A stretch of DNA of 10,606 nt from an uncultured Sutterella sp. (GTDB lineage Bacteria > Pseudomonadota > Gammaproteobacteria > Burkholderiales > Burkholderiaceae_F), in contig CAKQKT010000069.1 of the NCBI GenBank assembly GCA_934249275.1, positions 1 to 10,606 of the forward strand. The letters run 5' to 3'. Below the pieces are notes generated by a model, which worked only from the letters and a program-made list of their open reading frames with translations, was not told the origin of the DNA and did not search any database. The position numbers and the translations under genes were made by a program. Positions 1-5,515 of the stretch are shown in pieces (the first letter of the stretch is position 1; each line of letters begins with the position of its first letter).

Positions 1-81
1 CCTTTCCAACTTTGACGAAGGATGTCAACCGGCCTTCGGGCCGAGCAAGCGGAACCTGCGGGTATCCGCAAAGGAGATACT
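1..81 (+). ncRNA. 3' part of a probable IscB omega-RNA (5' end cut off by the window)
   Basis: IscB nucleases use an omega-RNA encoded directly upstream of the iscB reading frame, with the guide at its 5' end and the scaffold running up to the start codon. Three consecutive hairpins can be read here: TTGAC/GTCAA (12-16 with 24-28), CGGCC-TTCG-GGCCG (30-43, a UUCG-type tetraloop) and GCGGA-ACC-TGCG-GGT-a-TCCGC (49-69, one bulge). They end just before the AAGGAG ribosome site at 71-76. Position and compact folding fit an omega-RNA 3' end. The guide and most of the scaffold lie left of base 1, so the target cannot be read. The RNA identity is inferred from position and structure, not from a covariance match. 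Confidence 0.6.
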
Positions 82-84
82 TTG
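71..84 (+). promoter_or_regulatory. Ribosome binding site fixing a TTG start for iscB
   Basis: AAGGAG at 71-76, five bases, then TTG at 82-84. This strong Shine-Dalgarno decides for the TTG over the in-frame ATG at 22, which lies inside the predicted omega-RNA fold. Confidence 0.75.
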
Positions 85-1344
85 AAAGTTTTTGTTTTGA
101 ACATGCGCGGCAAACCGCTGATGCCGTGTTCGCCTGCAAAGGCGAGACACATGCTGAAGGCGGGCAAGGCCGTCGTCGTGCAGCGAACGCCGTTCACGAT
201 TAAGCTGATCATCGCCACGGGCGAGACGAAGCAGGACGTGACGCTTGGCGTTGACGCAGGCGCAAGGCACGTTGGCATTTCCGCCACGACGGAAAAGGAG
301 GAGGTCTTCGCGTCAGAAGTCGAGCTTCGACAAGACATCACGGGACTTCTTGCCGACCGTCTGGCTTTCCGACGTACAAGGCGCAATCGCAAGACGCGCT
401 ACCGCGCTCCGCGATTCAACAATCGCGTTCGATCGAAGAACAAGGGATGGCTTGCGCCGTCCGTGGAGAACCGCATTCAGGCGCATATCTCGCGCATTGA
501 AGCGGTTTGCCGAGTGCTTCCGATCACCAAGATCGTGATTGAAACCGCATCCTTCGACATTCAGAAGATCAAGAATCCGGAAGTCGAAGGGACGGGCTAT
601 CAGCAGGGCGACCAGCTTGGTTTCTGGAACGTGCGCGAGTACGTTCTTTTCCGAGACGGTCATGTCTGTCAGCACTGTCGTGGTCGATCCAAGGATCCGA
701 TCCTCAACGTGCATCATCTTGAGAGCCGCAAGACGGGCGGTGATGCTCCCAACAACCTGATCACGCTCTGCGAGACATGCCACAAGGCATATCACGCCGG
801 GAAGATCAAGTTGAAGGCACGACGCGGCACATCGTTCAGAGCAGAAGCCTTCATGGGCATCATGCGTTGGACGCTGCTTGAGCGCGTCCGCAAGGCGCAT
901 CCCGAACTGCTTGTCGAGAACACCTACGGGTATCTGACGAAGCACAAGCGCATTGTCCTTGGCATGCCCAAGACGCATTGTGCAGACGCCTTCTGCATTG
1001 CCGGAAATCTAAATGCGCTGCGAAGAGGAGACTTCCTCTTCCAACGCCAGACGCGCAAGCACAATCGTCAGATCCACAAGTGTTCGATTCTCAAGGGCGG
1101 AGAGCGAAAACTCCACCAGGCGCCATTCCTTGTCAAAGGCTTCCGCCTCTTCGACAAGGTAAAGTGCAAGGGACGAATCGGGATTATTTTCGCTCGCCGT
1201 TCATCCGGTTACTTCGACGTCAGAACGCTTGATGGAACTCGTCTTTCCGCCGGCATCAACTCCAAAAAACTGACGCTTCTCGAAAAGCGAACCACTTTTT
1301 TAACACAACTTAGAAAGGAGGTCGGCGCTTCCTCCCCGTTCTAA
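82..1344 (+). CDS. iscB: IscB RNA-guided HNH/RuvC nuclease
   Basis: This is a 420-residue RNA-guided DNA endonuclease of the IscB family, found in IS200/IS605-type elements and related to Cas9. The TTG start at 82 is preceded by AAGGAG with 5 nt spacing and gives the usual N-terminus LKVFVLNMRGKPLMPCSPAK. The upstream in-frame ATG at 22 would read through the omega-RNA hairpins. Domain order: PLMP domain (PLMP at 12-15), RuvC-I (LGVDAGARHVGIS, D58), arginine-rich bridge helix (about 96-119), RuvC-II (IVIETASFDIQKI, E154), an HNH insert with zinc cysteines C196/C199 and C230/C233 and HHL at 211-213, RuvC-III (KTHCADAF, H299 and D302), then a C-terminal target-interaction-type region with RRSSGYFDVRTLDG. 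Every catalytic motif is present, so the enzyme looks active. No TnpA transposase is present, so the locus is either a non-autonomous element or a standalone copy. Confidence 0.93.
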   Translation: MKVFVLNMRGKPLMPCSPAKARHMLKAGKAVVVQRTPFTIKLIIATGETKQDVTLGVDAGARHVGISATTEKEEVFASEVELRQDITGLLADRLAFRRTRRNRKTRYRAPRFNNRVRSKNKGWLAPSVENRIQAHISRIEAVCRVLPITKIVIETASFDIQKIKNPEVEGTGYQQGDQLGFWNVREYVLFRDGHVCQHCRGRSKDPILNVHHLESRKTGGDAPNNLITLCETCHKAYHAGKIKLKARRGTSFRAEAFMGIMRWTLLERVRKAHPELLVENTYGYLTKHKRIVLGMPKTHCADAFCIAGNLNALRRGDFLFQRQTRKHNRQIHKCSILKGGERKLHQAPFLVKGFRLFDKVKCKGRIGIIFARRSSGYFDVRTLDGTRLSAGINSKKLTLLEKRTTFLTQLRKEVGASSPF

Positions 1345-1359
1345 CGGAAGAGGTTTCCG
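1317..1359 (+). repeat. Tandem hairpins spanning the iscB stop, candidate element right end
   Basis: Two small inverted repeats flank the TAA at 1342-1344: GGAGG (1317-1321) with CCTCC (1331-1335), and CGGAA (1345-1349) with TTCCG (1355-1359). IS200/IS605 elements carry subterminal hairpins at their ends, and the right end usually lies close behind the nuclease gene. No run of T follows, so an intrinsic terminator is less likely. The exact end and cleavage site cannot be placed from one copy. Confidence 0.35.
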
Positions 1360-1371
1360 CGCCGAATCATT

Positions 1372-1887
1372 ATGATTTTTGCCGCCAAGCTTGCCGGCGC
1401 TGCTGCTGCGTTGTGCCTTTCCTTTGCCGCTTCTACGGTCGCTGCTGCCGACGAGGGCACGCAGCCGATCACGGATCGGGACCAGTGCCACACGTGCGAC
1501 ATGTGGATCACGAAGTATGCGGGCCCCAAGGCCGAGATCGTGACGAAGAGCGGCCATGTCTACAAGTTCTGCAGCACGAAGTGCATGACCTGCACGCTGC
1601 TGCGCCTTGGCGTCTCGGAAAAGATCGCCGGCATCTGGGTCAACGACATGGTCGGCAACGACTGGGAGCATCCGAACGCCTCCTTCATTGATGCCGAATC
1701 CGCCTGGTACGTCCAAGGCTCGAGCCGCAAGGCCACCATGGGCAAGTCGCTCGCCTCCTTCAGCACTGAAGAGGCCGCCGTCGCCTTTCAGAAGGAATTC
1801 GGCGGAACGATCTACCGCTGGAACGACCTCACGAAGGACATCCTCGGCTGCATGGTCCCGAAGAAGCCCGTCGTCCCGATGGAATGA
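1372..1887 (+). CDS. nosL: NosL-family copper-binding periplasmic protein
   Basis: A 171-residue exported protein of the NosL family, copper chaperones known for supplying nitrous oxide reductase NosZ. The ATG at 1372 is the only start that keeps the signal peptide (hydrophobic residues 7-24, likely cut after VAA at about 26). No lipobox cysteine is seen, whereas classical NosL is a lipoprotein. The hallmark is CHTCDMWI at 39-46 (CxxCxM). Further on are FCSTKCMTC at 66-74, with a second CxxC, and AWYVQGSSRKATMGKSL at 111-127, a typical NosL core. No nosZ or other nos gene is in the window, so its partner is unknown and it may serve another copper or redox protein. No good ribosome site precedes the ATG; GGAAGAGG at 1346-1353 is too far away. 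The start is 27 bp behind iscB. Confidence 0.82.
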   Translation: MIFAAKLAGAAAALCLSFAASTVAAADEGTQPITDRDQCHTCDMWITKYAGPKAEIVTKSGHVYKFCSTKCMTCTLLRLGVSEKIAGIWVNDMVGNDWEHPNASFIDAESAWYVQGSSRKATMGKSLASFSTEEAAVAFQKEFGGTIYRWNDLTKDILGCMVPKKPVVPME

Positions 1888-4981: not shown

Positions 4982-5515
4982 TTACTTCTGGAGCTTTTCA
5001 ACGGCGGCCTTGACTTCGGCGCTCGAAGCGGCGTTCGTCTTCATGAGGTCGCGGATTTCGCGAAGAAGAACGATGTCTTCCGGCGTGGGAGCGGGAGCAG
5101 GCGCCGGGGCGGAGGCCTTCTTGTCCTCTTCGGCCTTGAGAAGCTTGGCGGCTTCGGCTTCAACGCGCTTGCGGATCGTCGTGACGACCTTGATGAGCCA
5201 GAAGATCACGAAGGCGAGAAGGAGGAACTGAACGACGGCAGTGAGGAAGGCGCCGTAGCCGAAGACGGTGGCGCCGGCCTTGACGAGGGCTTCGTAGGTC
5301 TGCGGACCCGTGTAGCCTTCAACGGGCTTGAGAACCAGGAAGAGGTTCGTGAAGTCGGGACGGCCGACGAGCACGCCGAGGATCGGATTGACGATGTCCT
5401 TGACGAGCGAGTTGACGATGTTGGAGAAGGCGGCGCCGATGATCACGGCGACGGCCAGATCCATGACGTTGCCCTTCGAAATGAAGGCTTGGAATTCCTT
5501 GAGGAAATTGCGCAT
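4982..5515 (-). CDS. mscL: Large-conductance mechanosensitive channel MscL
   Basis: A 177-residue inner-membrane channel that opens under membrane tension and releases solutes on hypo-osmotic shock, working as a homopentamer. Residues 1-14 (MRNFLKEFQAFISK) form the N-terminal amphipathic helix, TM1 is about 15-45 with the pore-lining GNVMDLAVAVIIGAAF, the periplasmic loop is about 46-84, and TM2 about 85-112 (GAFLTAVVQFLLLAFVIFWL). The start at 5515 matches the family; the frame is open upstream, but that stretch is not MscL-like. It is longer than the usual 130-150 residues: between TM2 and the C-terminal bundle helix (PEDIVLLREIRDLMK, 145-159) lies a charged stretch and an Ala-Pro linker (135-144), and a further helical tail of about 18 residues follows. 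Monocistronic, divergent from proC. Confidence 0.96.
   Translation of the reverse strand: MRNFLKEFQAFISKGNVMDLAVAVIIGAAFSNIVNSLVKDIVNPILGVLVGRPDFTNLFLVLKPVEGYTGPQTYEALVKAGATVFGYGAFLTAVVQFLLLAFVIFWLIKVVTTIRKRVEAEAAKLLKAEEDKKASAPAPAPAPTPEDIVLLREIRDLMKTNAASSAEVKAAVEKLQK

Follow-up and report, generated by a model that had tools for sequence, protein, structure and literature searches.

The closest described relatives of this locus are the IscB/HEARO (RF02033) OMEGA elements, which likewise combine an IscB protein with an omega-RNA just upstream, an ATGA-type flank and a terminal hairpin, and which only rarely have a tnpA neighbour (PMC9755519). IsrB systems are similar in that the terminal hairpin of their omega-RNA contains the Shine-Dalgarno sequence (SD) of the nuclease, so that a nuclease with its ribosome site inside its omega-RNA has precedent, and in that their target-adjacent motifs (TAMs) NTGA, NTG and NTGG fit the ATGA and ATGG flanks seen here; they differ in having no HNH domain and in an SD that serves the nuclease, not a host gene (PMC9581776). 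A parallel of another kind is offered by bacteriophage T4, where a hairpin between the SD and the AUG of genes 25 and 38 makes a working split ribosome site, in which spacings of 27 and 22 nt shrink to 11 and 5 (PMC3014915). The T4 structures belong to a phage mRNA, whereas the structure considered here lies at the end of a mobile element and is predicted to cut a spacing of about 50 nt to mostly 8.

The elements described here depart from the IscB/HEARO plan in that an SD is conserved ahead of the right-end hairpin and gene starts are strongly preferred. No description of this SD-hairpin-start-codon design with gene-start preference was found in the literature searched, most subscription papers lying outside its scope. 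The window, that is the whole 10,606-nt stretch of DNA analysed, probably contains the right-hand portion of an IS200/IS605-type element that is non-autonomous and made up of omega-RNA and IscB, in a reading taken jointly with mobilisation in trans, insertion at the start of nosL and a split ribosome site.

IscB and the end of its omega-RNA

The iscB gene (82..1344, + strand, as are all features of the element) runs from a TTG start to a TAA stop at 1342-1344, with its PLMP, RuvC and HNH parts intact. Its product of 420 residues (82-1341) shows the PLMP motif, split RuvC and HNH with putative catalytic residues of an IscB, and matches Pfam RRXRR (PF14239, E 5.8e-65) and HNH (PF01844, E 6e-8) as well as solved IscB chains (best E 3.5e-41; OgeuIscB 8.2e-39). 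Residues D58, E154, H211, H212, N225, H234, H299 and D302, which we take to have catalytic roles in IscB, are all present, and each is conserved in at least 62 of the 63 rows (one of them from the window) of an alignment from which matches shorter than 1200 nt or with stops had been excluded beforehand. The original prediction of an intact IscB is borne out by these domain matches, solved chains and conserved residues, and its choice of a TTG start agrees with the relatives, 25 of 26 of which have TTG at this position, with ATG in L021. In-frame ATGs occur at -60 in only two of the 26 (L003 and L022) and at -12 in ten, all Duodenibacillus. The reading frame open from ATG 22 is an accident, and the false extension foreseen for automatic annotation is already in the databases, where proteins P0005, P0006 and P0012 contain residues read from the omega-RNA; over-long predicted IscB N-termini are a known matter (PMC13180657). 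At the other end of the protein, IscB entry P0002 continues beyond the right end with MIREQQP, which seems to open a different host gene lying behind the same terminal sequence as in the window.

An omega-RNA upstream of iscB had also been predicted, and covariance matches confirm it in the relatives: HEARO RF02033 lies upstream of iscB in 10/10 relatives scanned (118-143 bits). In the window itself the Rfam scan gave no HEARO match at E up to 1, because only the last ~30 nt of the RNA fall inside it. This 3' end (1..30) was placed through L003 and L022, which align gap-free to window 1-130 and whose HEARO ends 51-52 nt before the start codon, equivalent to window 29-30. Since the window begins inside the omega-RNA, the guide and most of the scaffold lie to its left, and such a beginning would fit an assembly broken at a repeat. 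Between the RNA core and the SD of iscB (AAAGGAG, 70..76) stand two stem-loops (30-43 and 49-69, together 30..69); the fold of 1-84 has three stem-loops within a stem that pairs bases 3-7 with this SD, at -30.0 kcal/mol (z -2.37; 5 of 200 shuffles equally good).

Insertion at the start of nosL and of other genes

The right end of the element, a boundary that the original prediction did not mention, directly adjoins ATGATT, where a nosL-like host gene begins (1372..1887; PF05573, E 6.3e-38), so that a single ATGA (1372..1375) is the flank of the element, its likely TAM and the nosL start codon. The orthologous nosL stands without the element in S. wadsworthensis (L085), Sutterella RGIG9068 (L086) and a canine Sutterella (L087), where a purine-rich SD precedes a start of the ATGA type (read, for L086 and L087, from alignments that begin 18 and 10 nt inside the gene). 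Weinberg reportedly gave ATGA or GTGA as the target of HEARO elements in 2009. The ATGA flank suggests the TAM of a predicted RNA-guided DNA cleavage. Within one genome of S. wadsworthensis two groups of IscB copies differ in this flank, with ATGG at L001, L002, L003 and L022 and ATGA at L018 and L123, and the two groups may differ in target motif; in IsrB the fourth TAM base is set by one residue (PMC9581776).

A right-end profile, built from 12 sequences that excluded the window and were chosen with ATG behind them, detected, at E<1e-4, 58 distinct sites across the window and 88 loci, and ATG[AG] occurs within about 20 nt of all 58. Three of these sites are TnpA-only ends and 55 were counted as IscB-type, L014:2751 being kept among the latter though TnpA-only in type by sequence. 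The ATG opens at least 60 codons at 40/55 IscB-type ends, whereas 330 of the 1116 non-coding ATG[AG] in these loci do so (30% expected). The null, used here and for the 44 further loci treated below, is conservative because it leaves in the opening 90 nt of called genes along with their start codons. Copies within one genome are related, so that p values overstate. A Pfam match was found for 29 of the 38 complete downstream proteins, and in 22 of the 29 the match begins at profile position 1-4 and inside the protein's first 60 residues, a pattern to be expected of true starts. The start at L123 is doubtful (match from profile position 45), and that of L001 probably lies 12 nt further on, behind GGAGG. 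The 60-codon test does not clearly separate IscB-type ends (40/55) from TnpA-only ends (6/11; p 0.29); starts judged by eye, with uneven criteria, do so at 38/55 versus 2/11 (p 0.005). The 11 TnpA-only ends were drawn from 24 TnpA loci, the other 13 having no such end beside an ATG.

Genes that begin in this way include the sole PF10502 signal peptidase I match found in G003 (Duodenibacillus), which starts at the terminal ATG of IscB copy L008; the left flank of L008 has no strong SD (-2.5). In E. coli, lepB is essential. Of 80 plasmid records with a match, 13 were inspected: in seven the terminal ATGA is the annotated start of the next gene, and in the other six it is not. A plasmid of Trichormus variabilis (L172) carries an IscB element that separates parA from parB, and the terminal ATGA opens parB; here an SD-like GAGG stands at the end of the hairpin instead.

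Among start-codon copies, 14 of 28 show a displaced native SD (-5 or better) on the element's left side, compared with 0/6 other copies and 42/238 control windows, in statistics that exclude one row of N and the spurious left end L132.

The Shine-Dalgarno sequence and hairpin of the right end

An SD, AGAAAGGAGG (1312..1321), falls within the 3' end of iscB and immediately precedes the right-end hairpin (1322..1365); the iscB stop codon begins in the apical loop of the hairpin, and a spacer (1366..1371), placed from the fold and from right-end site measurements, leads to the host start codon. A strong SD (-7 kcal/mol or better) precedes the hairpin at 49/55 IscB-type ends and is absent from 11/11 TnpA-only ends, although these share the ATGA flank and a hairpin that is identical or closely similar. 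Six IscB-type ends have none, four of them not at starts by the 60-codon test (L009, L014, L020, L140) and two at starts (L107, L121); 11 ends with an SD open fewer than 60 codons, and the association of SD with starts among IscB-type ends is weak by itself (p 0.04). In line, the SD core stands 46-53 nt from the ATG; with the hairpin removed, the distance is 8 nt in 29 of 48 sites and ranges from 6 to 14 (48 of the 58 sites, nine having no SD core in place and L041 being folded otherwise). The right end therefore offers an SD, a hairpin and an AUG at a workable folded spacing, and by analogy with T4 genes 25 and 38 may work as a split ribosome site. We judge it probable that this portable ribosome-binding site keeps the host gene translated where the element sits at the nosL start.

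The hairpin of the window is not exceptional as a fold (z -1.24). Two-sided changes occur at 13/14 of its pairs in 26 sequences and are not taken as proof of a role in RNA, the hairpin being also a transposase site. It contains TTCCTCCC, complementary to the SD, and in L035 and L036 this pairing seems to be retained with changed bases (read by eye, uncounted), as would suit a hairpin whose CCTCC sequesters the SD, or an SD that otherwise regulates the element and does nothing for the host gene. We regard this as improbable, for the TTCCTCCC motif also occurs in TnpA-only hairpins that no SD precedes, and the centroid fold of the element's right end in the window leaves the SD open.

Outside the Sutterella group, right ends were picked by eye at 44 further loci, nearly all from other groups, with 11 of 55 such loci left out as cut or unclear; the 44 include L021 and L024 (labelled Desulfovibrio MAG), and L021 is also one of the 55 profile-found IscB-type ends. 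Here 25/44 ATGs open 60 codons, against 358/1604 controls, and 19 do not; an SD lies 38-85 nt before the ATG in 33/44, against 49/220 control windows inside iscB. A strong SD is missing in 11/44, all five Erysipelotrichaceae RD49 copies among them. The start preference is weaker outside the Sutterella group, and some clades are without the SD. The RD49 copies (L056, L057, L061, L063, L076) are a multicopy IscB in one genome, and ATGG adjoins four of their five SD-less right ends. Relative to the iscB frame the SD falls in phase 0, 1 and 2 in 18, 13 and 2 of these further loci, and it is not merely IscB coding sequence, because at L048 and L059 it is located after the iscB stop.

Such variation in phase and position bears on a rival explanation, in which the ATGA/GTGA target merely resembles start codons, selection purges intragenic insertions, and the host gene owes its translation to coupling with iscB termination, with the SD mattering little. 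The position of the iscB stop does range from overlap with the ATG to about 50 nt ahead of it, with stop/start overlap in L021 and two annotated plasmids, and the SD-less TnpA-only elements also use ATGA, two of 11 at gene starts. Coupling of this kind would not, however, call for an SD conserved in different phases and even beyond the iscB stop, nor for the narrow folded spacing from SD to ATG, and we consider it unlikely, though less so than sequestration.

Probable mobility and the proposed capture of start codons

Features of the IS200/IS605 type are present in the subterminal hairpin and in a fixed flanking tetranucleotide (ATGA at 48/55 ends and ATGG at 7, in a set whose 12 seed sequences were chosen with ATG behind them). 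Matches number 30 in G003, 11 in G001 and 10 in G002, and relatives were found in 21 of 67 genomes of the family of G001, with up to 30 matches per genome; fragments of one gene are counted apart in these figures, and many copies are fragments. Where a family name does not come from a record title, it is a label of ours. Y1 TnpA genes were found in 5/6 relative genomes tested, and the window excludes the element's left flank. The terminal hairpin recurs on TnpA-only elements, where its orientation to tnpA is inverted and ATGA again adjoins it; because hairpin and flank are shared, a Y1 TnpA is likely to mobilise the IscB element in trans through that hairpin. At L084 a TnpA-only element adjoins ATGA inside an apparent molybdopterin oxidoreductase gene, which the insertion would break.

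Domestication, which the original prediction had entertained, is accordingly hard to maintain: the intact putative catalytic residues and the want of a noted tnpA in the window would suit a host nuclease that is no longer mobile, but IscB is multicopy in the relatives, three relatives have no element at the nosL site, and the ends of the element are common to TnpA elements. A mobile element is most likely, and a domesticated gene very improbable indeed. A reading as a defence system was dropped as well, PADLOC having given just four weak matches of HNH-type proteins.

On the mobile-element reading, the element would insert immediately 5' of the ATGA start of the nosL-like gene, and the host promoter would transcribe host leader, omega-RNA, iscB and host gene as a single message, in which the leader becomes the guide. 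Once folded, the right-end hairpin would leave about 6-8 nt between the SD of the element and the ATG of the host gene, forming a split ribosome-binding site, such that the nosL-like gene stays translated though its own SD is now about 1.6 kb upstream (a displacement estimated from full copies in relatives). Guide-loaded IscB may then cut element-free alleles beside ATGA, whereby the element is retained or spread. Taken further, IscB elements could be start-codon-capturing transposons, in which one motif serves both as TAM and as host start codon, transcription of the omega-RNA and its guide come from the promoter and leader of the host gene, the hairpin-bridged SD takes over translation of the host gene, and loss of the end silences that gene, an addiction keeping the element; we put this forward tentatively, as quite possible if somewhat short of probable. 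If true, this would account for the survival of hosts in which a 1.6 kb element parts many genes from their own ribosome sites, for the usefulness of an ATGA/GTGA target to the element, and for the source of a promoter for an omega-RNA whose guide lies outside the element. It would make directly testable how IscB elements avoid harm to their hosts, and would point to a compact natural module through which a gene may stay translated downstream of an insertion.

Further along the window lies mscL (4982-5512, - strand; Pfam E 1e-39), and the remaining genes look ordinary and chromosomal.
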